DNA from: Gammaproteobacteria bacterium
GTDB taxonomy: Bacteria > Pseudomonadota > Gammaproteobacteria > Steroidobacterales > Steroidobacteraceae
Length of the DNA stretch: 11,986 nucleotides
Assembly (NCBI GenBank): GCA_020846815.1
Contig: JADLDF010000344.1
Coordinates: 1 to 11,986, forward strand
Direction: 5' to 3'
Part shown: positions 1 through 11,986 of the stretch, piece by piece
Position numbering within the stretch: position 1 is the stretch's first letter
Layout: every line of letters begins with the position of its first letter
Made by a program: the position numbers and the translations under genes
The notes under the pieces: generated by a model
What the model saw: only the letters and a program-made list of their open reading frames with translations
Told to the model about the DNA's origin: nothing
Databases searched by the model: none

Positions 1-2
1 AT

Positions 3-1013
3 TGCTACGTGGGCGTGAGCTCGGGATCGGTGCTCGCCGCCTGTCTCGCCAACGGCCTGGACACGCGCGAGCTGGTGCGCCTGTTCATCGCCGAGGAGGC
101 GGACTCGAAGCACGTGCGGGCGCTGCGTCCCGACGTGCTGTTCACGCCGGCGCTCGGCGAATATGCATGGCGGCTGGCGCGCCTGCCGGGGCTGGTGCTG
201 GAGGGGCTGCTGCAGGTGCTGAAGCGGCCGTTCACCGGCGAGTTCGCCGGCGCGCTGCTGCCGATCACGCAGAGCCTGCCGGCGGGCCTGTTCGACAACG
301 CCCGCTTCGAGCGCTTCCTGCGCGAGGAGTTCACGCGCCGTGGACGCAGCAATCGCTTCGATCGTCTCGGCACGCGGCTCTACGTGGTTGCGACCAACCT
401 CGATACCGGCGAGGCCGTGGTTTTCGGTCGCGGGCGCCTGCGTACCGTGCCGATCTCCAAGGCGGTGCAGGCCAGCACCGCACTGCCGGGGTTGTATCGG
501 CCGGTCAGGATCGGCAGGGCGAACTACGTCGATGGCGCACTGCGCCGCACCATGCATGCTTCGCTGGCGCTCGATGCGGGCGACGATCTGGTGTTCTGCA
601 TCAATCCGCTCGTGGCCTTTGCCGGCACCGGCCGGGCGCGCGGCACGGATCTCGCGAGCCGCGGCCTGCCGACCGTGCTGAGCCAGACCTTCCGCACGCT
701 GATCCAGTCGCGCATGCAGGTGGGAATGGCGGACTATCCGGAAGAGTATCCGGGTTCCGACATCCTGCTGTTCGAGCCGGACCGCGACGACGAGACCATG
801 TTCTTCCTGAACCTGTTCAAGTACCGCGATCGCGAGCGTCTCACCGAGCATGCCTACCAGCGCACGCGAGCCGACCTGCGGCGCGCGGGCGCGCCGCTCG
901 AGCGGCTGCTGGCGCGCCACGGCCTGCAGCTCGATCGCCGCGTGCTGCGCGAGCGCCGGCAACTGCTGGCGGTCACGCCCGGCCGGGCGCCGGGCCGCGC
1001 GCGGGGCCGCTGA
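3..1013 (+). CDS. Patatin-like phospholipase, 5'-truncated
   Basis: Serine acyl hydrolase of the patatin family, expected to cleave acyl esters of phospholipids or related lipids with a Ser-Asp dyad. The reading frame is open from the first base, so the N terminus, including the glycine-rich oxyanion loop, lies outside the window; the first visible codon is base 3 and 336 residues are seen. The nucleophile elbow GVSSG comes almost at once (visible residues 4-8, nucleophile Ser6). The second catalytic motif, DGA, is at visible residues 177-179 in the context NYVDGALRR. Between them are typical patatin segments such as a VVATNLDTGE strand and an ASTALPGLYRPV turn. The C terminus is a helical, Arg-rich tail. 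The stop codon overlaps the next ATG by one base (TGATG), which indicates translational coupling to the alpha/beta hydrolase. An internal GTG at base 9 is not a credible start because it would remove the fold before the nucleophile. Family assignment is firm; the substrate is unknown. Confidence 0.9.
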   Translation, partial: CYVGVSSGSVLAACLANGLDTRELVRLFIAEEADSKHVRALRPDVLFTPALGEYAWRLARLPGLVLEGLLQVLKRPFTGEFAGALLPITQSLPAGLFDNARFERFLREEFTRRGRSNRFDRLGTRLYVVATNLDTGEAVVFGRGRLRTVPISKAVQASTALPGLYRPVRIGRANYVDGALRRTMHASLALDAGDDLVFCINPLVAFAGTGRARGTDLASRGLPTVLSQTFRTLIQSRMQVGMADYPEEYPGSDILLFEPDRDDETMFFLNLFKYRDRERLTEHAYQRTRADLRRAGAPLERLLARHGLQLDRRVLRERRQLLAVTPGRAPGRARGR

Positions 1014-2038
1014 TGCTCGCGCTCGTGCTGCTCGCGCTGGAGTGCCTGGAGGTCGGCCTGCTGCTCGGCGTCGCATCGTGGGCGGCCGATGCGGGGCTCG
1101 GCGTCGTCGGTGCGCTGGCACTCGTCGTGGCGCTGGCATTCGCCTGGCGCTCGCTGCTGGTGCTCGCGAGCCATGTCGCGAGCGGATCGGGATGGCCGGG
1201 CTGGCGCCTCTGGCTCGACGAGACGACGGCCTTCACTCTCGCTTATGTCGCGATGACGGTCGAGCCGCTGCGGTACGGCGGCCGGAGCAGGCGCGGTGGT
1301 GAGGCGGCGGGTTGCGCTATCGCTCCTGCCGCCGGCCCGCGGCTCGTGCTGCTGCACGGCTGGTGCTGCAATGCCGGAGTCTGGCAGACATTGCGCGCGG
1401 TCTGGCTGCGGCAGTGCGCCGCGCCGCCGCCGATCGCGGTCACGCTGACACCGGTGTTCGGCGACATCGACCGGATGTGCCGCAACCTGTCCCGGCAGCT
1501 CGCGCCACTGCTGGCGCGGCGCGAGCCGCTGGTGCTGGTGGCCCATAGCATGGGAGGTCTGGTCGCGCGGCGCTGGCTGCAACAGGATGCGGCGGCGGCA
1601 CGGCTCGTCGTGGGGTTGCTGACGGTCGGCACGCCACACGCCGGTACGCGGCTGGCGCGCCTCGGGCCCGGACGCGCCGCGACGCAGATGCGGCCCGGCA
1701 GCGACTGGCTCGCGGCGCTCGCCGCCATGGGACCTTCGTGCCCGGTGTGCTGCGTCTGGAGCGACACCGACGGCTTCGTCGCGCCCGCCCGCTCGGCTCT
1801 GCTGCCGCATGCCGCGAGCGTGGCGCTGCACGGCCGTGGGCATTTCGGCCTGCTGCGCGATGCGCAGCTGCCGCCGCTGGTGATGGACTGGCTGGCACGC
1901 TGTGCTTCACCGACAGCCGCGCTCCAGCCGGCATCCGCGATCGCACCACAGTCGCTGTCCATGCTTGTGCCGCAGTCGGTATGCACCCTCGCACCACTGC
2001 CGGCGCGCACGGCTGGATCGCAGGTGCCGGTGGGCTGA
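1013..2038 (+). CDS. Membrane-anchored alpha/beta hydrolase (lipase/esterase-like)
   Basis: 341-residue alpha/beta-hydrolase-fold protein, probably an esterase or lipase. The N terminus carries two hydrophobic stretches (about residues 2-22 and 28-52) that should hold it in the inner membrane. The catalytic domain starts near residue 109 with LVLLHGW, the HG oxyanion motif. The nucleophile elbow is AHSMGG with Ser179; a VGTPHAG segment at 205-211, typical of lipases, follows. The acid is Asp251 or Asp253 in WSDTDGFVAP and the histidine is His277 in GRGHFGLL. The last 40 or so residues are Ala/Pro/Ser-rich, lie beyond the fold and look unstructured. The ATG at 1013 is chosen because it overlaps the patatin stop by one base and opens directly into a membrane segment; the frame also stays open far upstream, but only as a shadow of the patatin gene. 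Its stop again overlaps the next ATG as TGATG. Fold and triad are clear; the substrate cannot be read from sequence. Confidence 0.88.
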   Translation: MLALVLLALECLEVGLLLGVASWAADAGLGVVGALALVVALAFAWRSLLVLASHVASGSGWPGWRLWLDETTAFTLAYVAMTVEPLRYGGRSRRGGEAAGCAIAPAAGPRLVLLHGWCCNAGVWQTLRAVWLRQCAAPPPIAVTLTPVFGDIDRMCRNLSRQLAPLLARREPLVLVAHSMGGLVARRWLQQDAAAARLVVGLLTVGTPHAGTRLARLGPGRAATQMRPGSDWLAALAAMGPSCPVCCVWSDTDGFVAPARSALLPHAASVALHGRGHFGLLRDAQLPPLVMDWLARCASPTAALQPASAIAPQSLSMLVPQSVCTLAPLPARTAGSQVPVG

Positions 2039-2829
2039 TGGACGCACGCGACGCCTGCCTCGACTCGCTCGCCGCCGCGCTCGCACGTCTCGAGCGGGCG
2101 CAGCGCCGCGCCGTCGCGCCGGCACTGCGACAGCGCCTGCACCTGCTGCGCGACTGGCAGGCGCAGCGGCTCGCCACCGAATACGCAGACCAGCGCGAAT
2201 ACCCGCGGCGGCGCGACGCGGTCGGGTTCTTCCTCGACGACGTGTACGGCGCGCGCGACTTCGCCGAGCGCGACGTGCAGTTCGCACGCGCGCTCCACCG
2301 GCTGCGAGCGATGCTGCCGATGCCGGCGCTGCAGGCGCTGCGCGACGCGGTCGAGCTGCAGGCGTTGACGCTCGAGCTGGACGCCGCACTCGCAGCCTGT
2401 CTCGACGAGGCGGCGGCGCTCGACGCCTCGGCCTACGCGGATGCCTATCGCGAGGTCGGACGCTACGCGGATCGCGACCGGCAGATCGATCTCGCGCTCG
2501 AGATCGGTGCGCGTCTGCGGCACCTGACCGCGCACCCGACGATCGAGCTGATGCTGCGCCTCGCGGCCACGCCGGCGCGTCTGGCGGGCTATGGCGCGCT
2601 GCAGGGTTTCATCGAGCGCGGCTACGCGGCCTTCCGTCGCCTGGGCCCGGAAGCGGCTGCGTTCCTCGATACGATTGCGGCGCGCGAGCGCGCCTTCCTC
2701 GCACGAGTCGCTGCCACGGGCGTGACGGCCGATGGCGAAGACGTCGAGCGGACCGGTGCACGCCCTGGTGAAAGGGCCGTTGCAGAGAGCGGCGATGCAG
2801 CCGCAGGCGAGGCAGGCGGCGGTGTCTGA
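2038..2829 (+). CDS. Conserved hypothetical helical protein with FFLDDVYG motif
   Basis: 263-residue soluble protein that I recognise only as a conserved hypothetical type. It has no signal peptide or membrane segment and appears almost wholly alpha-helical, with long amphipathic Ala/Leu/Arg/Glu stretches. The most distinctive block is FFLDDVYGARDFAERD at residues 64-79, preceded by a charged EYPRRRD stretch (54-60); such an invariant-looking block suggests a functional or binding surface. A second conserved-looking part is residues 165-200, ending AHPTIELMLRLAATPARL and a GFIERGYAAFR helix. The last 35 residues are Gly/Ala/Glu-rich, and the DNA that encodes them also contains the start of the GMC gene. 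The start ATG overlaps the hydrolase stop by one base, so production is coupled to it. By position it may be an accessory factor for the patatin/hydrolase pair; that is inference, and no enzyme function should be assigned. Confidence 0.8.
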   Translation: MDARDACLDSLAAALARLERAQRRAVAPALRQRLHLLRDWQAQRLATEYADQREYPRRRDAVGFFLDDVYGARDFAERDVQFARALHRLRAMLPMPALQALRDAVELQALTLELDAALAACLDEAAALDASAYADAYREVGRYADRDRQIDLALEIGARLRHLTAHPTIELMLRLAATPARLAGYGALQGFIERGYAAFRRLGPEAAAFLDTIAARERAFLARVAATGVTADGEDVERTGARPGERAVAESGDAAAGEAGGGV

Positions 2830-4468
2830 GCGCGGCGACGAATTCGACTATGTGATCGTTGGCGGCGGGTCCGCAGGTTGCGTGCTCGCCAGCCGCCTCT
2901 CCGCCGATCCGACGGTGCGCGTGCTGCTGCTGGAGGCCGGGCCGCGCGACCGCAACCCGCTGATCCATATGCCGGCCGGCATCGCGCGGCTCGTGGATCA
3001 CCCGGTGTTCGACTGGCGCTACTTCACCGAGCCCGAGCCGCAGCTCGGCGGTCGCCGGCTCTACTGGCCGCGCGGCCGCGTGCTCGGCGGCTCGAGCTCG
3101 ATCAACGCCATGTGCTACACGCGTGGCCAGCCCGAGGACTACGACGAGTGGGCCGCGCTCGGCAACCCGGGCTGGGATTTCGCGAGCGTGCTGCCGTATT
3201 TCCGCCGTGCCGAGCATTCCTACCGCGGCGCGGGGCCGTTCCACGGCGCGTCCGGGCCGCTGTGGGTCTCGGCAGCGCGCCAGCGTCACGCGCTCAGCGC
3301 GACCTTCGTCGCGGCAGCGATCGAGCGCGGCCAGCGGGCCTGCGACGATTTCAACGGCGCGCGGCAGGAGGGTGTCGGCTTCTACGACGTCACGCAGCGC
3401 GACGGCCGCCGCTGCTCGGCCGCTGCGGCTTATCTGCATCCCGTGCTTTCCCGGCCGAATCTCGCGGTGCGGCCGTTGCATCGCGCCTTGCGCGTGTGCT
3501 TCGAGGGTCGGCGTGCCAGCGGCGTCGAGTACCAGCGTCGCGGCCGCCGGCAGCGCGTGCGCGCAGCGCGCGAGGTGCTGTTGTGCGGCGGCGCCATCGG
3601 CTCGCCGCAACTGCTGATGCTGTCCGGCATCGGCGATGCGCCGTCGCTGCACGCTCTCGGCATTCCCGTGGTCGCGGACCTGCCGGGCGTCGGTGCGAAT
3701 CTGCAGGACCATCTCGACGTCTGCCTGCTGTGGAAGAGTCTGCGGCGCGACACCTACGACTTCGGGCTGCTCGGCGAGGCGGCCGTCGCGCTGCGCTGGC
3801 TGCTGACGCGTTCCGGCCCCGGCGCGTCGAACGTCGCCGAGTCGGGTGGCTTCCTGCGCAGTCCGCTGGCGCGCGATGCGCGGCCCGACCTGCAGTTCCA
3901 CTTCGTGCCGGCGCAGCTCGACGATCACGGGCGCAACCGGCTGCCGGGCCACGGCTTCACCGTGCACGCCTGCGCGCTGCGGCCCCGCAGCCGCGGCTGG
4001 CTGCGCCTCGCCAGCGCCGATCCGGCGGTGCCGCCACGCATCGCGCCGCACTATCTGCAGCAGTCCGGGGACCTCGACCTGCTGCTCGAGGCGGTCCATC
4101 TGGCGCGGGACATCGTCGGTGCGCGCGCCTTCGACGCCTGGCGCGGCGTCGAGGTGTTTCCAGGGCCAGGCCACGACGATCGGCAATCGCTGATCGAGTT
4201 CATCCGCCGCAAGGCGGAGACGATCTACCATCCGGTCGGCACCTGCCGCATGGGGCCGGGCCACCAGCACGGTGCGGTCGTCGATGCCGCATTGCGCGTC
4301 CACGGCCTCGAGGGGCTGCGCGTGGTCGATGCCTCGGTGATGCCGCAGCTCGTCAGCGGCAACACCAATGCACCGACGATCATGATCGCCGAAAAGGCCG
4401 CGGACCTGGTGCTGCAGCGAGCGGCACTGCCGGAACCGGATGGCGCAGCCCTGCCGCGGCAGGGCTGA
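2795..4468 (+). CDS. GMC-family FAD oxidoreductase (choline/alcohol dehydrogenase-like)
   Basis: 557-residue flavoenzyme of the glucose-methanol-choline family, expected to oxidise a primary alcohol to an aldehyde using FAD. Positions count from the ATG at 2795. The Rossmann dinucleotide site is VGGGSAG (22-28), followed by the acidic end of the second strand in LLLEAGP (44-50). GMC signature 1 is PRGRVLGGSSSINAM (92-106) and signature 2 is GAIGSPQLLMLSGIG (266-280). The catalytic pair is His479 in YHPVGTCRMG and Asn523 in SGNTNAPT. They are 44 residues apart, as in choline oxidase. The start is uncertain: ATG 2732 is in frame but lacks a ribosome-binding site. ATG 2795 follows GAGAG by 5 bases. 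GTG 2822 follows GAGG by 9 bases and sits closest to the flavin fold. All overlap the preceding gene. The family is certain; choline as substrate is not, because many such enzymes act on long-chain or polyether alcohols, which would suit the hydrolases upstream. Confidence 0.93.
   Translation: MQPQARQAAVSERGDEFDYVIVGGGSAGCVLASRLSADPTVRVLLLEAGPRDRNPLIHMPAGIARLVDHPVFDWRYFTEPEPQLGGRRLYWPRGRVLGGSSSINAMCYTRGQPEDYDEWAALGNPGWDFASVLPYFRRAEHSYRGAGPFHGASGPLWVSAARQRHALSATFVAAAIERGQRACDDFNGARQEGVGFYDVTQRDGRRCSAAAAYLHPVLSRPNLAVRPLHRALRVCFEGRRASGVEYQRRGRRQRVRAAREVLLCGGAIGSPQLLMLSGIGDAPSLHALGIPVVADLPGVGANLQDHLDVCLLWKSLRRDTYDFGLLGEAAVALRWLLTRSGPGASNVAESGGFLRSPLARDARPDLQFHFVPAQLDDHGRNRLPGHGFTVHACALRPRSRGWLRLASADPAVPPRIAPHYLQQSGDLDLLLEAVHLARDIVGARAFDAWRGVEVFPGPGHDDRQSLIEFIRRKAETIYHPVGTCRMGPGHQHGAVVDAALRVHGLEGLRVVDASVMPQLVSGNTNAPTIMIAEKAADLVLQRAALPEPDGAALPRQG
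4446..4467. terminator. 22-bp perfect palindrome over the GMC stop codon, possible terminator hairpin
   Basis: The left arm CAGCCCTGCCG is followed directly by its exact reverse complement, so the RNA could form a very stable GC stem with a tiny loop. It covers the last codons and most of the stop codon of the GMC gene. A second perfect palindrome, CCGGCGCCGG, lies at 4479-4488. Both sit in the short gap between convergent genes, where a bidirectional terminator is expected, but neither has a T-run, so a classical intrinsic terminator is not shown. Confidence 0.35.
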
Positions 4469-4507
4469 CGGCGTTGCGCCGGCGCCGGTGCAGTGACGGC
4501 GGCGCTG

Positions 4508-5158
4508 CTAGGTGTCCGGGCGATTCCGCAGCAGTGCGAGGCCGAATGCCGCGCCGCCGGCCGCCAGCGCCATGTCCTTCTGGGCATCCCAGACGTCGCC
4601 CTGCGTGCCGAGGTAGGCGACTCCGAGATCGCCGCCGAACTGCAGCGCAGCAGCCCACTCCAGCAGCTCGTAGATCACGGAGTGGGAGCAGAGGAAGCTC
4701 CACGGCAGCAGCCAGCGCCACGGGCCACGCGGCGCCGCGGCGCGCTGGATCAGCTCCGTGGCCGCGGGCGCGACCAGCAGGCCATAGGCGAAGTGCACCA
4801 GCCGGTCGAAGTGGTTGCGTGCGCCGCCGTTGCCGCTGCCGTCCAGCGGTGAACCGGTCAGCGTTTGCCACCACGCGTCGTACGGGACTTCGGAATAGGT
4901 GTAATGGGCGCCGATCGCGTGCAGCGAGAAGAACACGAACAGTGCGCCGTAGGCGAGATTGGAGAAGGGCGCCGAGTGCCAGCGGCGCACCAACCAGGCA
5001 ATGGCCGCGAAGACCAGCAGGTTCTCGAGCAGCCAGTCCTCGCGGAAGCGCGGCGCGATCGCCAGCGCGAGCCACACCGCGCCGTAGACGGCGAGCAGTG
5101 CCGGGCCCAGCGACCCCGCGCGAACGGCGGATGCGGCCGGGACCGGCGGCTGCGTCAT
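4508..5158 (-). CDS. yjdF: YjdF-like inner-membrane protein (DUF2238)
   Basis: 216-residue multi-pass membrane protein of the DUF2238 family, whose Escherichia coli member YjdF is about the same size and has no established function. Hydrophobic spans are visible near residues 18-35, 45-58, 67-85, 119-136, 148-168 and 196-210. Conserved polar blocks sit between them: LHAIGAHYTYSEVPYD (79-94), RNHFDRLVHFAYG (114-126), YELLEW (163-168) and YLGTQGDVWDAQKDM (182-196). These His, Asp and Glu residues at membrane boundaries could bind a metal or form an active site, but this is inference. The ATG at 5158 is chosen because the longer frame upstream is only a shadow of the macro-domain gene. It starts 8 bases after that gene's stop, so the two are probably co-transcribed. 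It ends 39 bases from the convergent GMC gene. The family match is strong; the role is unknown. Confidence 0.87.
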   Translation of the reverse strand: MTQPPVPAASAVRAGSLGPALLAVYGAVWLALAIAPRFREDWLLENLLVFAAIAWLVRRWHSAPFSNLAYGALFVFFSLHAIGAHYTYSEVPYDAWWQTLTGSPLDGSGNGGARNHFDRLVHFAYGLLVAPAATELIQRAAAPRGPWRWLLPWSFLCSHSVIYELLEWAAALQFGGDLGVAYLGTQGDVWDAQKDMALAAGGAAFGLALLRNRPDT

Positions 5159-5166
5159 CCGGCGCG

Positions 5167-5658
5167 TCAGCCCGTTTCGCGGGCAGCGACGCCGGGCACG
5201 TACTTCGAGTAGACGTAGACCGGTATCGCGAGCGAACCGAGATGCTGCTCCACCAGCGGGCGCACGTCGCTCCAGTCGAGCCCGCCGACGCCGGTCGCGA
5301 TGCGCGGCAGCGCGAGGCTCGGGAACTTCTCCTTCTCGGCGAGCTTGTGCAGCGCCTTCAGCGCATGGCCGACGTGCGAGGGCGAGGCGCGTCCCGGCCG
5401 GCCGCCATGGTGGCCCTCGGCACCTTCCTGCGTGAACAGGCTGACGATGCGCACGCCGCCGGCGCCCATCCATGCCCAGAGCTCGCCGGGTTTCGGATGC
5501 GTGGTCTGGCAGTAGTGGCGGAAGTCCTTGTAGAGCGCCGGCCAGCGCTCGCGCAGCGCGTGCGCGAGGCCCTGCGCGAACGGATCGTTGGGGGCGACGC
5601 CGTGTACCAGGACCGCGGCCTTCGACTCGAGCAGGTCGCCCTGCAGTTCCTTGATCAT
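5167..5658 (-). CDS. Macro-domain (ADP-ribose-binding) protein
   Basis: 163-residue protein consisting of one macro domain, the fold that binds ADP-ribose and in some members removes it from proteins, nucleic acids or small molecules. The N terminus reads MIKELQGDLLESKAAVLVHG; GDLL (7-10) is the typical first-strand motif with its Asp contacting the adenine. A helix follows (PFAQGLAHALRERWP, 26-40) and then a strand IVSLFTQEG (71-79). The hallmark phosphate loop is LALPRIATGVGGLDWSDV (115-132). The arrangement most resembles the ALC1/TARG1/DarG-type macro class rather than MacroD. In that class a lysine after the third strand can act in catalysis; here the comparable place reads FTQ, so Gln77 may replace it and the protein may be a binder or use another mechanism. 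The ATG at 5658 has an excellent Shine-Dalgarno sequence. It is the first gene of a pair with yjdF; no DarT-like toxin is nearby. Confidence 0.88.
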   Translation of the reverse strand: MIKELQGDLLESKAAVLVHGVAPNDPFAQGLAHALRERWPALYKDFRHYCQTTHPKPGELWAWMGAGGVRIVSLFTQEGAEGHHGGRPGRASPSHVGHALKALHKLAEKEKFPSLALPRIATGVGGLDWSDVRPLVEQHLGSLAIPVYVYSKYVPGVAARETG

Positions 5659-5662
5659 CTGT

Positions 5663-5670
5663 TCACCTCA
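5663..5670 (-). promoter_or_regulatory. Strong ribosome-binding site of the macro-domain gene
   Basis: On the minus strand this reads TGAGGTGA, a near-perfect anti-16S match, 4 bases before the ATG. It fixes the start at 5658 and suggests that this gene opens the two-gene unit. Confidence 0.75.
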
Positions 5671-5930
5671 TCACTCGACATGTTCGGTGACCGCGGCCTC
5701 TCTGGCAACGTGAACGACGCGGTCCACGGGACGCGCAACGACACCCTGGCCGCCACAGACCCGTCTTGACGCAGTGTCCGGGCCCTGGCCGGCCGTCGCC
5801 ATCCGCAGAAACGGACGCGGGCCTGCGGAATGTGCCTATCCGCCGCTCCGCCCGGCTTGTGGCCGGCGGGCGGAGGCGTTCCGCTGGCGTCGATTCAGGC
5901 GCACCGAGTGCGTTCCGCGAGGGCCGTGGC
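5671..5930. other. Intergenic stretch with a GC-rich hairpin, no gene supported
   Basis: Small open frames run through here on both strands, but none has a recognisable product, a ribosome-binding site or protein-like composition. The stretch must hold the promoter of the macro-domain gene, though no clear -35/-10 pair stands out. The only structure seen is an inverted repeat at 5846-5875: CTCCGCCC pairs with GGGCGGAG, with a GGC/GCC extension around a TTGTG loop. It lies about 55 bases past the stop of the MgtC-like gene and could stop its transcript, but it lacks a T-run. Confidence 0.4.
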
Positions 5931-7184
5931 TCAGGTGGGCGGCAGCAGGATGCCGAGCCAGAGCGCGCCGATCATGCCGACGAGGCTGGGTGCGAGCCGC
6001 AGGAAATACGCACGGCCGCCGGTCGACGCCGCCCAGAGCTTGGTCGCGGTATTGGCGGACATCGCCAGTGCGACCGCAGTGACAGCGGCCTCCGGTGCGA
6101 GCGCGCCGCGGGCGGCGAGCGCCGTCACCGAAGCGGCTGCCGAGTGGGTATTGATGAAGCCCCCGGCAATGGCTCCGCCGATGATGCCGCCGTCGCCGAA
6201 CAGCCGTCCGAGCAGCGCGACGACCATGAGCATCGCCGCGAGCACGACTGCGATCAGCAGCGCATGCCGCGGATCGAAGGCACGACCGGCCGGCGCGTCG
6301 AAAGCGACGGCGTTCATGTGGCGATAGCTCAGCGCGGCGCCGGCGAGCACGGCAACCGCACCCATCGCGGCCAGCGGCAACGCCATCTGCCATAGCGTTG
6401 CCGGGCGCGTCGCGCCGAGCATCAGCACCATCTGCAGCACCGTGCCGACCGAGGACAGCGAGGCGCCGGCGAGGGCGCCGTGCAGCTGGTCCGGATCCTC
6501 GCGACTGCGTCGCCCCATCGCGGCGATGGTCGCGACGCTGGAGACGAAGCCGCCGGACAGGCCGGCGACCGGCAGTCCCCAGCGCGGCCCGAGCAGGCGC
6601 AGCGCCACGTAGCCGGCCGCATTCACCAGCATCACGATCACCGTCAGGCGCCAGATCAGGTGGAGATTGATCGCGCCGAGCGGATCGAGCGCGCGGTCGG
6701 GCAGCAGCGGCAGCACGACCAACGCCGCGCCGGCCAGCAGGATCGCGTCGTAGAGCTCGCGGTCCGTGAGCCAGGCCTGGGCGAAGTTGTGCAGCTTCGT
6801 GCGTGCGGCCAGCAGCAGCGCGATCATTGCACCGAGGCCAGCCGCGAGCGGCGCGTTCTCAGTGGCGAGCACGCCCATGCCGAAGGTCGCGAGCATCGCG
6901 ACCTCAGTCGTGAGGCCGGGATCGTGCGAGCGGCTGCGCCAGTAGCTGATCGCCGTGAGCGCGACGACGCCGGTGCCGAGCGCGGCGGCGAGCCAGGGCA
7001 GACGGCTGCTGCCCGCGGTCGCACCGAGCAGCGCCACGATCACGAAGGTGCGCACGCCCGCGGCGGCGCGGTCGGGGCCCTCGCCCTTGCGTCGTTCCCG
7101 CTCGACGCCGATCAGCAGGCCGGCGCCGAAAGCGACCACGAAGGCCACGACCGGCTCGGGCAGGAAGCCGAAACCTCCGGACAC
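5931..7184 (-). CDS. MgtC/SapB-DUF4010 family membrane protein
   Basis: 417-residue integral membrane protein with an N-terminal MgtC/SapB-like domain and a C-terminal DUF4010 domain. The N-terminal half has the family signature GLLIGVERERRKGEG (22-36) followed by AGVRTF (42-47) and hydrophobic spans to about residue 130. The DUF4010 half includes LPVAGLSGGFVSSVATI (204-220) and GGIIGGAIAGGFINTHSAA (332-350), plus a further span at 397-414. About ten to twelve membrane segments are expected. MgtC proteins are linked to survival at low Mg2+ and in macrophages; this long two-domain form is common in environmental bacteria and its role is not known. The start is a GTG; no ATG lies between it and the ArsR stop 12 bases upstream, and the ribosome-binding site is weak, so expression probably depends on the ArsR transcript. 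This places it on one arm of the divergent ArsR-controlled unit. The family is well supported; transport of any ion is inference. Confidence 0.88.
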   Translation of the reverse strand: MSGGFGFLPEPVVAFVVAFGAGLLIGVERERRKGEGPDRAAAGVRTFVIVALLGATAGSSRLPWLAAALGTGVVALTAISYWRSRSHDPGLTTEVAMLATFGMGVLATENAPLAAGLGAMIALLLAARTKLHNFAQAWLTDRELYDAILLAGAALVVLPLLPDRALDPLGAINLHLIWRLTVIVMLVNAAGYVALRLLGPRWGLPVAGLSGGFVSSVATIAAMGRRSREDPDQLHGALAGASLSSVGTVLQMVLMLGATRPATLWQMALPLAAMGAVAVLAGAALSYRHMNAVAFDAPAGRAFDPRHALLIAVVLAAMLMVVALLGRLFGDGGIIGGAIAGGFINTHSAAASVTALAARGALAPEAAVTAVALAMSANTATKLWAASTGGRAYFLRLAPSLVGMIGALWLGILLPPT

Positions 7185-7196
7185 GCCGCCGGCCGC

Positions 7197-7586
7197 TCAG
7201 AGCCGTGCGGCGTCGCGGCCCTTGGCCGCGGACGCGCCGCAGTAGACGCCATGCAGCACTTCGATGACCTGTGCTGCGGGACCCGGCTTCAGGGAGTAGT
7301 GGATCGTCTGTGCGACGCGTCGCGTCGCGACGATGCCCTGCTCGCGCAGCACGGCGAGGTGCTGCGACGTCGCCGACTGGCTGAGCGGCAGCCGGGCGAT
7401 CAGCTCGCCGACCGTCAGCTCGCCGTCTGCGAGGTTGCAGAGGATCATCAGGCGCTGGGTGTTGCCGAGGGCGCGCAGCAGTCCGGCCGCCTCCTCGGCA
7501 TGCGGACGCATCGACTGTGCCTGGGTGGCCTGGGCTGCGGCCTCGCGTGGCCGGCGGGCTCGGGTGGGCTGGACGGACGGGCTCAT
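7197..7586 (-). CDS. ArsR-family repressor, BigR/SqrR-like candidate persulfide sensor
   Basis: 129-residue winged-helix repressor (numbered from the ATG at 7586). After a basic, disordered-looking first 27 residues comes the usual ArsR core: [17 protein letters not shown] (36-52), then the recognition helix [19 protein letters not shown] (68-86) and the wing [12 protein letters not shown] (88-99), ending with [11 protein letters not shown] (107-117). The metal motif ELCVCDL of arsenic and zinc sensors is absent. Instead there are exactly two cysteines, Cys50 in the second core helix and Cys116 in the last helix, 66 residues apart. These are the positions and spacing of the pair in SqrR and BigR that forms a polysulfide bridge with persulfides. 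It is transcribed away from the DUF2892-RND operon, with an inverted repeat between them, and precedes the MgtC-like gene by 12 bases. Another in-frame ATG at 7511 would give a shorter 104-residue core; the TTG at 7640 is unlikely. The persulfide-sensing role is inference from the cysteine geometry. Confidence 0.88.
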
Positions 7587-7630
7587 GGACGCTCGCGGGT
7601 GGTGCAGTCGGAACCGCTCTGGGCCGTCAG

Positions 7631-7659
7631 TGTATTCCAAGACTTGCTAAATTAGTAAA
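7631..7659 (-). promoter_or_regulatory. Possible divergent promoter for the arsR-mgtC arm
   Basis: Read on the minus strand, TTTACT (7659-7654) and AATACA (7636-7631) are 17 bases apart and would start a transcript about 40 bases before the ArsR ATG. The matches to consensus are only moderate (4 of 6 and 3 of 6). The -35 overlaps the inverted repeat, so the repressor could also control itself. Confidence 0.35.
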
Positions 7660-7671
7660 TTCTAATATACT
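7644..7671 (+). promoter_or_regulatory. Sigma-70-type promoter of the DUF2892-RND operon
   Basis: TTGCTA (7644-7649) and TATACT (7666-7671) are separated by 16 bases. This is the only strongly AT-rich patch in the window. Transcription should begin near 7678, giving a short leader of about 25 bases before the DUF2892 ATG. Confidence 0.7.
7651..7666. promoter_or_regulatory. Inverted-repeat operator for the ArsR-family repressor
   Basis: ATTAG and CTAAT are exact inverted arms around TAAATT, and matching TA pairs lie one base outside each arm. The element fills the spacer of the rightward promoter and touches its -10 box, so a dimer bound here would exclude RNA polymerase. AT-rich imperfect palindromes of this kind are typical ArsR-family operators. 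Binding by the adjacent repressor is inferred from position. Confidence 0.65.
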
Positions 7672-7689
7672 GGTCCGGAAAGCTGTTGC

Positions 7690-7695
7690 AGGAGG
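7690..7695 (+). promoter_or_regulatory. Ribosome-binding site of the DUF2892 gene
   Basis: AGGAGG, 7 bases before the ATG at 7703. It selects that ATG over the longer open frame running in from 7517, which is a shadow crossing the promoter. Confidence 0.8.
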
Positions 7696-7702
7696 CCCCG
7701 CC

Positions 7703-7906
7703 ATGAACATCGACCGCATCGTTCTCGCGTTCGCCGGCACGATGGTGCTGGCCAGTCTCGCGCTGTCCTGGGCCGTCTCGCCCTGGTGGCTGCTGCTCGG
7801 CGCCTTCGTCGGGCTGAACATGCTGCAGGCGGCGTTCACCGGCTTCTGCCCGCTGGCGATCGCGCTGCGGCGGGCAGGCGTGCCGTCCGGCTGCGCGTTC
7901 CGATGA
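7703..7906 (+). CDS. Small DUF2892 (YgaP-like) inner-membrane protein
   Basis: 67-residue membrane protein consisting only of the DUF2892 domain, the two-helix membrane module that is fused to a rhodanese domain in YgaP. It opens [16 protein letters not shown], with hydrophobic segments at about 6-25 and 28-46 forming a helical hairpin. The family motif FTGFCPL lies at 45-51 with Cys49, and a second cysteine, Cys64, sits in the C-terminal GCAF. No rhodanese domain is attached or nearby. It is the first gene behind the operator-controlled promoter and has the best ribosome-binding site of the operon. Its stop overlaps the adaptor's ATG (ATGA), so the adaptor is probably translated by coupling. 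Its role may be to bind the RND pump, as small helices do in other RND systems, or to handle sulfane sulfur through its cysteines; both are inference. Confidence 0.88.
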
Positions 7907-9069
7907 ACCTTGCCGTCGCGCTCGATCGCACCTGCAGGCCGCGTCGGCGCGCCGCCTCCGGCACGCGCTCGGCGGTGTCCGCCGCAGTGCTCGCCATGGT
8001 CCTGGCGGCACTCGCCGCCTGCAGCCGCGACGCAGCGCCTGCGGCTCCCAAGCCCGGTGCGCCGCCGTTTGCGGTGCTCGATCTGCAGCCCGAGTCGATG
8101 CCGGTCGAGCGGCGGCTCGACGGCACGATCGAGGCCGTCAATCAGGGCACGGTGTCGGCCCAGACCTCGGGCCGCGTGGTCGCGATCGAGTTCGATGTCA
8201 ACGACTTCGTCCCCGCGGGTGCGGTGATCCTGCGGCTGCGCGCCACCGAACAGCGCGCCGGCCTGTCGCAGGCCCAGGCCGCGCTGACCGAGGCCACGGC
8301 CCGCGAGGCCGAGGCGCAGACGCGCTACCAGCGGATCGCCGACATGCACGCGCGCAAGGTGGTGCCGAAGGCGATGCTCGACGAGGCGACGGCGAACCGC
8401 GACGCCGCGGTCGCGCGCCTGCAGGCGGCCCGTGCCGCGCTGTCCAGTGCACGCGAAGGCCTCGACTACACCGAGGTGCGCGCGCCCTACGCCGGCATCG
8501 TCACGCAGCGCCACGTGCAGGTGGGCGAATCGGTCGCACCGGGCACGCCGCTGGTCAGCGGGCTCTCGCTGCAATATCTGCGCGTCGCGGTCGACATCCC
8601 GCAGCGTGTCGTCGAGCAGGTACGACGCATCGGCAAAGCGGCGGTCTACGTCGGCGAGCGGCGCGTGCCGGCGACCCGGCTGACGATCTTTCCCGTCGCG
8701 ACGCCGCAGTCGAACACCTTCCGCGCCCGGATCGATCTTCCGGAGAACGCGGCGGATCTCTATCCCGGCATGTTCGTGAAGGTCGGCTTCGTCGTCGGCG
8801 AGGCGCAGCGGCTGATGGTGCCCGCGTCGGCCGTCGTCCATCGCAGCGAGGTCACCGGGGTCTATGTCTGGACGCCGGACGGACGTACCGTGCTGCGGCA
8901 GGTGCGTCTCGGGCATCTGATCGACGGTCGCTACGAAATCGCAGCCGGTCTCGTCGCCGGTGATCGCGTCGCGCTCGAGCCGCTGGCGGCGATGAGCCAT
9001 CTCGCCGACGGGCGAGTCGGCGACACCGCGCCTGCCGTTCGCCCGGCCGGTGCGGAGCGCGGGCCTTGA
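7903..9069 (+). CDS. RND efflux periplasmic adaptor lipoprotein (membrane fusion protein)
   Basis: 388-residue adaptor that should link the inner-membrane RND permease to an outer-membrane channel. A long basic N region (RPRRR at 12-16) and hydrophobic core lead to a lipobox LAAC with Cys40 as the lipid anchor. Order of domains: first barrel and lipoyl half from about 57 to 113 ([18 protein letters not shown], 84-101); alpha-helical hairpin about 116-187; second lipoyl half [21 protein letters not shown] (189-209, split across the domain edge); beta-barrel about 222-302, including [11 protein letters not shown] (286-296); and membrane-proximal domain to about 360 with VPASAVV (306-312). It has no His/Met-rich metal-binding segment. 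The ATG overlaps the DUF2892 stop by 4 bases and has no ribosome-binding site of its own, so it is likely coupled to that gene. No outer-membrane factor is seen in the window; it may follow the permease or be encoded elsewhere, TolC-like. Confidence 0.92.
9054..9057 (+). promoter_or_regulatory. Ribosome-binding site deciding the TTG start of the RND permease
   Basis: GGAG lies 8 bases before the TTG at 9066. No ATG or GTG lies close by in frame; the next ATG would fall after the first membrane helix. Confidence 0.55.
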
Positions 9070-11986
9070 GCGCCATCCCGCCACCGCGCGACGCGATCGG
9101 CTTCTCGGGCCGTCTCGCCGCGTTCTTCCTGCGCAATCCGCTGACGCCGCTGATCGCGGTCACGGCGCTGCTGCTCGGCCTGTTCGCGGTGCTGGTGACG
9201 CCGCGCGAGGAGGAGCCGCAGATCGACGTCACGTTCGCGAACGTGTTCGTGCCGTTCCCGGGCGCTTCGTCCGAGCAGGTCGAGAGCCTCGTGGCCTCGC
9301 CGATGGAGCAGGTGCTCGGCGAGATCGCCGGCGTCGAGCACATCTTCTCGACCTCGACGCCGGGCCTCGCGGTGCTGACCGTGCAGTTCGAGGTCGGCGA
9401 GCCGCGCACCGAGGCGATCGTGCGGCTCTACAACGCGATCTACTCGAACCAGGACTGGCGACCCGCGAACCTCGGCGTCGGCCAGCCCCTGGTGCGCCCG
9501 GGCGGCATCGACGACGTGCCGATCCTGGCGCTGACGCTCTGGACACGTGATCCGGACCGCGGTGCCTGGGAGCTCGGCCAGGTCGCGCGTTCCATCGAGA
9601 CCGAGATCAAGCGCGTGCCGGGCACGCGTGACGTCTACACCCTCGGCAGCCCGGCGAACCTGGTGCGTGTGCAGCTCGATGCAAGGCGGCTCGCGAACCA
9701 CGAGCTCACGGTTGCCGAAGTCGCCGGTGCGCTGCAGGGCGCGAATCTGGTGCGTCAGGCCGGGAGCCTCGTGGGCGAGGGCCGCGCGACGCCGGTGCAG
9801 GCCGGCGAGTTCCTCGCCGATCGAGACGAGGTCGCGGCGCTGGTCGTCGGTGCCCGCTCCGGCAAACCGGTGCATCTCGAGGACGTCGCCGAGGTGAGCG
9901 CGGCGCCCGAGCTGCCGGCCTCCTATGCCTGGTTCGGCAGTGGCGCCGCGACGCCGGCCGGGAACGCGGTCGAACGCGCGCCCGCGGTGACGATCGCGGT
10001 CTCGAAGAAGCCCGGCGAGAATGCGATCGACGTCGCGAGCCATGTGCTCGAGAGGGTCCGGATGCTCGAGGGCAGCCATCTGCCCGAGGGCGTCGAGGTC
10101 ACGGTGACCCGCAACTACGGCGTCACCGCCGACGACAAGGCGCAGAAGCTGATCCAGAAGCTGCTGTTCGCGACTGCGTCGGTCGTGCTGCTGGTCGTGC
10201 TGACCATGGGCCGGCGCGAGGCCCTCGTGGTCGGCGCTGCGGTCATCGTCACGCTTGCGGCGACGCTGTTCGCGTCCTGGGCCTGGGGTTTCACGATCAA
10301 CCGCGTCTCGCTGTTCGCGCTGATCTTTTCGATCGGCATCCTGGTCGACGATGCGATCGTGATCGTCGAGAACATCCATCGCCGCATGGCGCTCGAGCGC
10401 GCGCCGCTCGACGAGTTGATTCCGCGGGCCGTCGACGAGGTCGGCGGTCCGACGATCCTCGCGACCTTCACCGTGATCGCGGCGCTGCTGCCCATGGCCT
10501 TCGTCAGCGGGCTGATGGGCCCGTACATGAGCCCGATCCCGATCAACTCCAGCATGGGCATGCTGATTTCGCTGGCGATCGCGCTGGTGTTCACGCCCTG
10601 GCTGTCGCGCAAGCTCCTCGGCACGGGCCACGGCGGCGGTGGTGACGATGCCGTGGCGGGCGAGATCGCGCAGACTGCAACCGGCGCGCCCGCGCCGGTG
10701 GACCGCACCCAGGCGCTGTTCGACCGCCTGGTGCGGCCGCTGCTCGAAGGCGAGGGCGGCAGGGCGCGGCGCCATCGGCTGTACTGGGGCGTGCTGGCCG
10801 CGATCGTCGTCGCGGTGTCGCTCGCGGTCGTGCAGCTCGTCGTGCTGAAGATGCTGCCGTTCGACAACAAGTCCGAATTCCAGGTCGTGCTCGACATGCC
10901 CGAGGGCACGCCGCTCGAGACCACCGCGCGCGTGCTCGACGAGCTCGCGGCCGTGGTGCGCGCCGTGCCGGAGGTCACCGATTTCCAGGCCTATGCCGGC
11001 ACCTCGGCGCCGATCAACTTCAACGGCCTGGTGCGCCAGTACAACTTGCGCCAGCGCCCCGAGCTCGGCGACCTGCAGGTCAACCTGGTCGACAAGCACG
11101 AGCGCGACCGCCAGAGCCACGAGATCGCGCTCGCGCTGCGCCCGCAGCTCGCTCGGATCGCAGGCCGCTACGGCGCCTCGCTCCAGGTGGTCGAAGTGCC
11201 GCCGGGGCCGCCGGTCATGGCGCCGATCGTCGCCGAGGTCTATGGGCCGTCCTATGCCGAGCAGCGTCGCGTCGCCGGCGAGCTGCGCAAGCTGTTCGAC
11301 GCCACGCCCGACATCGTCGACGCCAACGACGGCCTGGAAGCCGCGGCGAAGCGCCTGATCCTGGTCGTCGATCGCGAAAAGGCCGCGAAGCTCGGCGTGT
11401 CGCAGCAGCAGGTCGGCGAGGTGCTGACGGCCGCGCTCGGCGGCAGCGACGCGACCTTCGTCCACGGCGGACGCGAGCGCCAGCCCGTCGCTGTGCGCCT
11501 GCAGCTGCCCGCCGAGGACATGGCCGACATCGGCTCGCTGCTGGAGCTCGAGGTGCGCGGCGCCGGTGGCGCGATGCTGCCGCTGTCGGAGATCGTCGAG
11601 GTGCGCGAATCGACCTGGGACGGCGCGATCCACCACAAGGACCTGCTGCCCGTGGTCTACGTGACCGGCGACATGGCCGGCCGGCTCGACAGCCCGCTCT
11701 ACGGCATGTTCCGGATCGTCGGCCGGGCCGGCGCTGCGCCGCCGCAGGGCCTCGGCCTCGCGCAGCGCTTCATCGCGCCGCCGGCGAACCCGAACGAGCT
11801 CGCGATCAAGTGGGACGGCGAGTGGCAGATCACCTACGAGACCTTCCGCGACATGGGGCTCGCCTACGCGGTCGGCCTGGTGCTGATCTACCTGCTGGTC
11901 GTGGCGCAGTTCGGCTCCTATGCCGTGCCGCTGATCATCATGGCGCCGATCCCGCTGACCATCATCGGCGTGATGCCGGGCCATGC
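9066..11986 (+). CDS. RND-family efflux permease, 3'-truncated
   Basis: Proton-driven inner-membrane pump of the RND superfamily; 973 complete codons are visible and the frame is still open at the window edge, so perhaps 100 residues are missing. It starts with TTG, overlapping the adaptor stop by 4 bases (TTGA). Membrane helix 1 is about 27-45, followed by the conserved PREEEPQI. The first periplasmic loop runs to about 355 and helix 2 begins near 366. Helix 4 carries the proton-relay pair Asp428-Asp429 in ILVDDAIVIVENIH. After helix 6 comes a Gly-rich cytoplasmic linker, then helix 7 and the second loop, opening with MLPFDNKSEFQVVLDMPEGT (596-615). The last visible part is PIPLTIIGVMPGH, just before the helix that carries the relay lysine, which is therefore not seen. 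The sequence is of general AcrB/hydrophobic-efflux type, without the heavy-metal CusA hallmarks that I can recognise. Substrate unknown. Confidence 0.92.
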   Translation, partial: MSAIPPPRDAIGFSGRLAAFFLRNPLTPLIAVTALLLGLFAVLVTPREEEPQIDVTFANVFVPFPGASSEQVESLVASPMEQVLGEIAGVEHIFSTSTPGLAVLTVQFEVGEPRTEAIVRLYNAIYSNQDWRPANLGVGQPLVRPGGIDDVPILALTLWTRDPDRGAWELGQVARSIETEIKRVPGTRDVYTLGSPANLVRVQLDARRLANHELTVAEVAGALQGANLVRQAGSLVGEGRATPVQAGEFLADRDEVAALVVGARSGKPVHLEDVAEVSAAPELPASYAWFGSGAATPAGNAVERAPAVTIAVSKKPGENAIDVASHVLERVRMLEGSHLPEGVEVTVTRNYGVTADDKAQKLIQKLLFATASVVLLVVLTMGRREALVVGAAVIVTLAATLFASWAWGFTINRVSLFALIFSIGILVDDAIVIVENIHRRMALERAPLDELIPRAVDEVGGPTILATFTVIAALLPMAFVSGLMGPYMSPIPINSSMGMLISLAIALVFTPWLSRKLLGTGHGGGGDDAVAGEIAQTATGAPAPVDRTQALFDRLVRPLLEGEGGRARRHRLYWGVLAAIVVAVSLAVVQLVVLKMLPFDNKSEFQVVLDMPEGTPLETTARVLDELAAVVRAVPEVTDFQAYAGTSAPINFNGLVRQYNLRQRPELGDLQVNLVDKHERDRQSHEIALALRPQLARIAGRYGASLQVVEVPPGPPVMAPIVAEVYGPSYAEQRRVAGELRKLFDATPDIVDANDGLEAAAKRLILVVDREKAAKLGVSQQQVGEVLTAALGGSDATFVHGGRERQPVAVRLQLPAEDMADIGSLLELEVRGAGGAMLPLSEIVEVRESTWDGAIHHKDLLPVVYVTGDMAGRLDSPLYGMFRIVGRAGAAPPQGLGLAQRFIAPPANPNELAIKWDGEWQITYETFRDMGLAYAVGLVLIYLLVVAQFGSYAVPLIIMAPIPLTIIGVMPGH

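Follow-up and report, generated by a model that had tools for sequence, protein, structure and literature searches.

What does a two-cysteine repressor of the ArsR family sense when its gene stands back to back with an efflux operon, and what does the pump encoded there expel? The question is raised by an 11,986-nucleotide stretch of DNA (contig JADLDF010000344.1 of assembly GCA_020846815.1, positions 1 to 11,986; the window) from a gammaproteobacterium of the family Steroidobacteraceae. Here, a repressor gene on the reverse strand (7197-7586) and a three-gene operon on the forward strand, encoding a small DUF2892 membrane protein, a periplasmic adaptor and a resistance-nodulation-division (RND) permease, are separated by a 116-base intergenic stretch. 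Our analysis indicates that the locus is probably a reactive-sulfur-responsive export operon. The gene map, the cysteine pair, the class of the sensor, the operator and the linkage of the pump family to sulfide-quinone reductase (SQR) and DUF2892 are established by comparison of sequences. The initial annotation of the window described a two-cysteine ArsR protein facing a DUF2892-adaptor-RND operon across an operator-containing promoter, correctly in both coordinates and description. Its proposal of a SqrR/BigR-type sensor controlling the pump is backed by the conservation of the cysteine pair, the tree of repressors, the shared operator and the sulfide-oxidation neighbours, and each of these lines could have turned out the opposite way.

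Sensor class of the repressor

The repressor (129 amino acids) was assigned to the reactive-sulfur-sensor type of the ArsR family from profile, structure-relative and tree evidence. Its winged-helix domain is recognised by PF01022 (55.9 bits against a cut-off of 22), and the only match in PHROGs is a family of unknown function. The protein contains exactly two cysteines, C50 (codon at 7437-7439, reverse strand) and C116 (7239-7241, reverse strand), which align without gaps with the first and second cysteines of HlyU and SqrR; their placement in helices alpha-2 and alpha-5 is taken from these relatives. Among proteins of solved structure the nearest were HlyU (90.8 bits), SqrR (74), BigR (73), NolR (70) and YgaV (65), after which the scores drop to SrnR (46), NmtR (42) and SmtB (34). 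The structure that we take to be SqrR is 6o8l, listed only as an ArsR-family regulator, and its cysteines share the 66-residue spacing of the window repressor.

The pair is conserved in two sets of relatives. The best 120 of 1883 matches include the query and a shorter version of it read from the window; of the other sequences, C50 was present in 118/118 and C116 in 117/118. The second set came from a search with the repressor against 196 genomes from the order to which the genome of locus L001 belongs, L001 being the closest permease relative among the matches listed. This repressor-first design avoids choosing loci by their pump; 86 genomes matched at E 1e-18, and the 60 best-scoring places were examined, so that they represent near relatives only. 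Both cysteines were found in 59 of these 60 loci. Each of the two exceptions ends before C116, the second because its contig ends.

A tree of 72 rows and 94 columns, which holds several long reference branches and from which the BigR sequence was left out, placed the window repressor on a 34-row branch with HlyU, SqrR, YgaV and NolR (support 95/91). SmtB, NmtR and SrnR fell outside that branch, as did a further set of ArsR proteins linked to pumps. The initial annotation had proposed alignment, tree and conservation of the pair in close orthologues as checks, and all of them came out in favour of its reading. In the parts of the published reports on which we draw here and below, a similarity network gathers all known reactive-sulfur sensors in one cluster, with cysteines in alpha-2 and alpha-5 (PMC10509353). 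It is very likely, judging from these relationships, that the repressor senses reactive sulfur species.

The same comparisons bear on whether the protein could instead be a metal- or metalloid-sensing ArsR governing a metal-efflux RND pump. Such pumps exist, the automatic name of the repressor is metalloregulator (NF033788, 86.1 bits against 55), and ArsR proteins resembling SmtB and NmtR stand at 13 of the 80 pump loci described below. However, two cysteines alone leave no CXC site in alpha-3, in line with the absence of a metal motif noted in the initial annotation, and the repressor groups apart from SmtB, NmtR and SrnR. Furthermore, the permease, incomplete in the window, reached 161.7 bits against the 701.45 of the heavy-metal RND model (CusA/CzcA, TIGR00914), and it carries the stretch VDDAIVIVEN, which marks HAE rather than metal pumps. 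The neighbours of its relatives are genes for SQR, rhodanese and dioxygenase, metal-transport genes not having been searched for as neighbours. Metal sensing is on these grounds very unlikely.

Simple redox chemistry is a second possibility, in which C50 and C116 would form a plain disulfide and the pump would be a general output of oxidative or peroxide stress. Disulfides are possible in two-cysteine regulators, and MexR, which controls an RND pump, answers to oxidants as well as to sulfane sulfur (PMC11211675). HlyU, the nearest characterised relative, is in contrast inert to H2O2 and keeps its DNA binding, which is lost with glutathione persulfide (GSSH), and the peroxide sensors occupy a separate cluster of the network, with their cysteines in alpha-3 (PMC10509353). 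The genes that accompany relatives of the locus are, moreover, sulfide genes, and we regard a peroxide sensor as unlikely.

Candidate operator and probable control of the pump

The window contains a single TTAGN6CTAA motif, TTAGTAAATTCTAA at 7652-7665 (no strand assigned), and none of 200 shuffled versions contained one. This candidate operator occupies the 16-base spacer of a sigma-70-like promoter of the pump operon, TTGCTA-16-TATACT (7644-7671, forward strand), itself recognised by consensus match only. Its position between the -35 and -10 elements suggests repression.

The recurrence of the motif was followed in 80 family loci, kept from at least 594 permease-similarity matches, and in control loci. 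For the latter, 60 other RND loci were drawn at random from 17 of 20 family genomes, and three were removed (L097 and L121, family members that are the L026 and L049 loci again, and L133, a family permease fragment), leaving 57. The exact core occurs in 26/80 family loci, and in 25 of these the next potential start codon of a DUF2892, adaptor or dioxygenase gene follows it by at most 160 bases. The longer consensus, judged by eye, is approximately ATATTAGAnnnnnCTAATATA. With at most one mismatch, ATTAGN6CTAAT was found upstream of 34 of the 71 pump-family operons that have upstream DNA, as against 0/57 control adaptor starts; one control, L136, carries the short core twice. Sorted by locus type, the longer motif preceded 12/19 operons with a Cys-pair ArsR gene, 21/39 in which no ArsR gene was found, 1/11 with another ArsR type and 0/2 with both. 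Fourteen operons have the exact operator and no Cys-pair ArsR nearby; all 14 genomes, motif-bearing genomes being those examined, encode an ArsR protein with C50 and C116 (17/23 matches). In the repressor-first set, the exact core was found near the repressor in 12/19 loci facing the pump, 6/12 facing SQR, 2/8 facing a dioxygenase and 7/21 facing other genes. The published HlyU operator includes TTAATTCAGACTAA, which agrees with 7/8 core bases and 8/10 bases of the longer motif (site from PMC10509353). In the Escherichia coli ygaVP promoter (L141) the best match to ATTAGN6CTAAT had three mismatches, a loose resemblance.

We conclude with considerable confidence, on this pattern of recurrence, that the repressor controls the pump through the candidate operator. 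The competing view is that the divergent layout and the motif are coincidental and that the repressor controls only itself and the gene behind it, which encodes an MgtC/DUF4010 membrane protein (5931-7184, reverse strand) and is not mentioned in the initial annotation. That gene does follow the repressor at 12 nucleotides and in the same orientation. The 200 other loci searched (60 repressor loci and 140 RND loci) yielded no MgtC/DUF4010 relative, however, and the operator at the pump promoter recurs; coincidence is extremely unlikely.

The pump family and its sulfide-oxidation neighbours

The three pump genes overlap in their reading frames, with an ATGA at 7903-7906 and a second overlap at 9066-9069. 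The first (7703-7906, forward strand) encodes a YgaP-like transmembrane protein of 67 amino acids (DUF2892/PF11127, 41.8 bits against 25.3) that has no rhodanese domain and hence only the membrane part of the sulfurtransferase YgaP; its Cys49 is kept in 49/49 aligned rows, which include the query and its own frame. The second (7903-9069, forward strand) encodes an RND periplasmic adaptor, or membrane fusion protein, of 388 amino acids (TIGR01730, 198.1 against 94.9) with a lipobox-like LAAC at Cys40. The third (about 9066-11984, forward strand) runs into the end of the window and is therefore incomplete, with 973 readable amino acids and an uncertain TTG start given by the mechanical list of open reading frames. 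It is an RND permease of AcrB/HAE type by its PF00873 score (417.9 against 28) and the adaptor gene upstream, and it resembles AcrB and MdtB. None of the named multidrug RND subfamilies of NCBIfam was above cut-off, the best being RND_permease_2 (384.7 against 1250), although incompleteness lowers all such scores.

Neighbours were counted anywhere in the available DNA, up to 6 kb on each side, with the same profiles for family and control loci. Note that 28 of the 80 family loci have less than 4 kb on one side of the permease, so that the family counts are low. DUF2892 accompanied 47/80 family pumps, an ArsR relative 31/80 (with the cysteine pair in 21 of the 31), SQR 20/80 and rhodanese 13/80, each against 0/57 controls. 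Weaker enrichment (p about 0.04 in each case) was seen for thioredoxin (12/80 and 2/57), dioxygenase and cytochrome bd (both 6/80 and 0/57). The outer-membrane channel was not significantly enriched (15/80 and 5/57, p 0.14), and the adaptor, as a positive control, was found at 75/80 and 52/57 loci. Before the three removals, the 60 original controls gave one ArsR, one DUF2892 and no SQR at the same score cut-offs, and at a looser E of 1e-5 they gave two ArsR, two rhodanese, three thioredoxin, one DUF2892 and one SQR, the last with 42 bits where the counts required 200.

The name SQR rests on two of the 20 members of a flavoprotein cluster, whose matches among proteins of solved structure are sulfide-quinone reductases (E 2e-161 and 3e-157); none of the six members scanned reached an NCBIfam cut-off. 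The dioxygenase cluster takes its name from a single member, a 299-amino-acid piece that aligns with the C-terminal portion of Blh at 387.9 bits and so falls short of the cut-off of 625. In four loci (L021, L032, L056 and L064), the SQR gene sits between those of adaptor and permease.

The 60 repressor-first loci gave a concordant picture. The genes divergent from the repressor began with adaptor and permease in 19 loci, SQR in 12, a dioxygenase in eight and other genes in 21. DUF2892 was present in 17 of the 19 pump-facing loci, and ten of these 17 also had SQR; SQR is oriented the same way as the pump in 10/19. The permeases are 61-69% identical to that of the window over at least 960 residues, with one exception ended by the end of its contig (65% over 185). 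Thus the gene order recurs, as the initial annotation had asked, and its view that a pump would be an unusual output for a BigR-type regulator does not hold; RND pumps are also listed beside two-cysteine ArsR proteins in a published survey (PMC12423496). An MMPL-type RND exporter continues 11 of the 12 SQR-first loci and is faced directly in eight of the 21 others. In total, the repressor faces an exporter of the RND superfamily in 38/60 loci and an exporter, SQR or dioxygenase in 47/60.

Some further features stand beside these. The Cys-pair repressor class faces single-chain MMPL-type exporters in 19/60 loci, 11 of them behind SQR (L166, L175, L178, L179, L182, L187, L188, L192, L199, L200, L211, L212, L224 and six more). 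Rhodanese genes adjoin a Cys-pair repressor, divergent from DUF2892, in L017 (3472-3846) and L060 (4252-4674), so that both halves of YgaP occur as separate genes at one locus. In Vibrio sp. HDW18 (L225), the permease is 52% identical to that of the window and the DUF2892 gene is divergent from adaptor and permease; the operator was not found there at up to one mismatch. Elsewhere in the window lie a gene for tRNA-Arg (ACG; 5040-5120, reverse strand), a GMC oxidoreductase of the choline-dehydrogenase type (2732-4468, forward strand; NF002550, 657 against 605 bits), a relative of which, in L213, is about 2.5 kb away from the repressor, and a patatin-like phospholipase (3-1013, forward strand) followed in another frame by an alpha/beta hydrolase-like stretch (within 2-2038, forward strand). 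An Rfam scan of the window gave nothing at gathering thresholds.

Proposed mechanism, possible substrate and precedents

We propose that the reduced ArsR dimer, bound to ATTAGN6CTAAT between the -35 and -10 elements, would block transcription of the DUF2892, adaptor and permease genes. When sulfane sulfur rises, as organic persulfide or polysulfide, sulfur atoms would bridge C50 and C116, the bridged repressor would leave the DNA and the pump would be produced. We infer bridging and the resulting derepression from the behaviour of HlyU, SqrR, YgaV and the sHdrR of H. denitrificans, and the pair of this last protein is likewise numbered C50 and C116 (PMC12423496). The pump might then expel the sulfane sulfur that SQR produces in oxidising sulfide, or else compounds accumulating alongside it, and DUF2892 may serve as a small membrane partner through its invariant cysteine.

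The precedents are close without being identical. HlyU of Vibrio shares the cysteine pair and spacing, and its hlyA operator resembles that of the window; however, HlyU is described as activating hlyA (PMC10509353), whereas in the window the place of the operator points to repression, and the genes under it form a pump operon. SqrR of Rhodobacter and BigR of Xylella and Acinetobacter carry two cysteines in alpha-2 and alpha-5 and have targets tied to sulfide oxidation, but the SqrR site is ATTC-N8-GAAT (PMC9774250). The YgaV-YgaP pair of E. coli sets an ArsR protein of the same type beside the same kind of membrane domain; YgaV represses ygaVP, and Na2S lowers its affinity for DNA (PMC9774250). 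Its YgaP differs in carrying a fused rhodanese, a domain encoded by its own gene next to the repressor in L017 and L060, and in having serine at the place of Cys49; the promoter, as seen above, departs from the operator. In Pseudomonas aeruginosa, sulfane sulfur relieves the repression of an RND pump, MexAB-OprM, by acting on a cysteine-based repressor, MexR, that binds in the stretch separating its gene from those of the pump; MexR is of the MarR family, sulfur links its Cys30 and Cys62, and the portion of the report used here mentions no SQR or DUF2892 partner (PMC11211675).

A parallel in gene composition is the Dsui_3440-3443 operon of Azospira suillum, which has an adaptor, SQR, an RND pump and an unknown gene, was the hit in Bar-seq and is highly expressed with H2S; the portion of the report used here describes no regulator for it (PMC5358917). 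Read from Dsui_3443 to Dsui_3440, its order equals the adaptor-SQR-RND-DUF2892 order of L021, L056 and L064, and a DUF2892 gene elsewhere in that genome rose about 10-fold (PMC5358917).

What, then, does the pump carry? Relatives of the switch and the pump stand repeatedly beside sulfide-oxidising genes, and the pump would on that account probably rid the cell of sulfur from sulfide oxidation. The recurrent SQR partner, the four operons that have the SQR gene within them, the DUF2892 cysteine and the Azospira operon lead us to favour sulfur compounds as the main substrate, at rather less than even confidence. A more specific version, which we put forward tentatively, is a dedicated sulfane-sulfur exporter: zero-valent sulfur or polysulfide, made at the membrane by SQR, would be relayed by the cysteine of DUF2892 and expelled by the RND pump, and the repressor would measure the same compound. 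Just as tentatively, the outer-membrane channel sometimes encoded beside the pump could serve as the exit part.

Set against these proposals is the view that the repressor does sense reactive sulfur and that the pump exports drugs or solvents broadly and just happens to be under sulfur control, like MexAB-OprM under MexR. The AcrB/MdtB-like permease and the MexR-MexAB precedent speak for it, and sulfidic habitats may hold many hydrophobic poisons. A general drug pump would not, however, be expected to keep such partners as DUF2892, found near 47 of 80 pumps, nor does it account for SQR between adaptor and permease or for SQR remaining with the pump under another regulator (below). We consider this view a serious contender, although one with a minority chance of being right.

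Several points weigh against our reading of the locus as a sulfur-responsive export operon. An AcrB-like permease is also compatible with a broad range of substrates, and MexAB is an example of a drug pump controlled by sulfane sulfur, which argues against sulfur as the substrate. In Azospira, deletion of the whole operon left the rate of H2S oxidation unchanged, and loss of the DUF2892 gene slightly delayed its onset only (PMC5358917). SQR, rhodanese and dioxygenase are absent from the window, which ends inside the permease. The repressor scored 85.8 bits with the BigR equivalog (NF040642), below the cut-off of 155, and consequently is to be named SqrR/HlyU-type, not BigR. No operator was found at up to one mismatch in 37 of the 71 pump operons. 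In 13 of the 60 repressor-first loci neither the pump nor SQR, a dioxygenase or an MMPL exporter stands opposite the repressor; three of them have the pump and two a dioxygenase elsewhere in the locus, and among the neighbours identified, from ten proteins scanned altogether, are kelch-repeat, cytochrome c, PIN-domain and polysaccharide-export proteins. Since the loci are interrelated, the Fisher p-values (as low as 4e-15) overstate independence.

Finally, 13/80 pump loci (L035, L043, L045, L050, L055, L061, L062, L065, L068, L069, L076, L077 and L080; ten from Betaproteobacteria) have another divergent ArsR protein, SmtB/NmtR-like, with Asn or Ser at the C50 position and a C-x3-C stretch near the C-terminus, and the operator (at most one mismatch) lies ahead of one of these 13 operons. 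This protein is, by its sequence, a different sensor for the same pump, and the pump is consequently not tied to one sensor. SQR is kept in 7/13 of these loci, which indicates that the pump, and not the sensor alone, is linked to sulfide oxidation.

A further system may be related. Vibrio cholerae VexLM is encoded on the small chromosome near an ArsR protein called BigR, and VexM may be a member of the family. No compound tested proved to be a substrate of VexLM (PMC10225521).

Neighbourhoods of ArsR and RND genes are already known, as is a sulfane-sulfur-responsive RND pump with a MarR-type sensor (MexR-MexAB). To our knowledge, which does not rest on an exhaustive search, there is no agreed transporter for the exit of zero-valent sulfur or polysulfide, for example in the formation of external sulfur. 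A 2025 study lists RND efflux pumps among the sulfur-gene neighbours of two-cysteine ArsR regulators, and its section 2.1 mentions neither the operator, nor the DUF2892 partner, nor the SQR-pump order (PMC12423496). Our literature search found a single paper in which DUF2892 and RND both occur, handled apart in the portions considered, and none combining MMPL, sulfide quinone and ArsR. The present analysis adds the operator, the comparison with control loci, a pump-DUF2892-SQR module that recurs and the proposal of a sulfur exporter coupled to SQR, and the SQR-linked exporters may form a distinct and possibly new family.

With the operator as a guide, sulfur-responsive regulons can be predicted even at a distance from the repressor gene. 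For sulfur export the pump family, with SQR, DUF2892 and a reactive-sulfur operator retained as its partners, is a concrete candidate, testable by single-gene deletion. The same sensor class also faces MMPL exporters, and these stand behind SQR in 11 of the 12 SQR-first loci, so that RND export coupled to SQR may represent a general and so far unnamed branch of sulfide detoxification.

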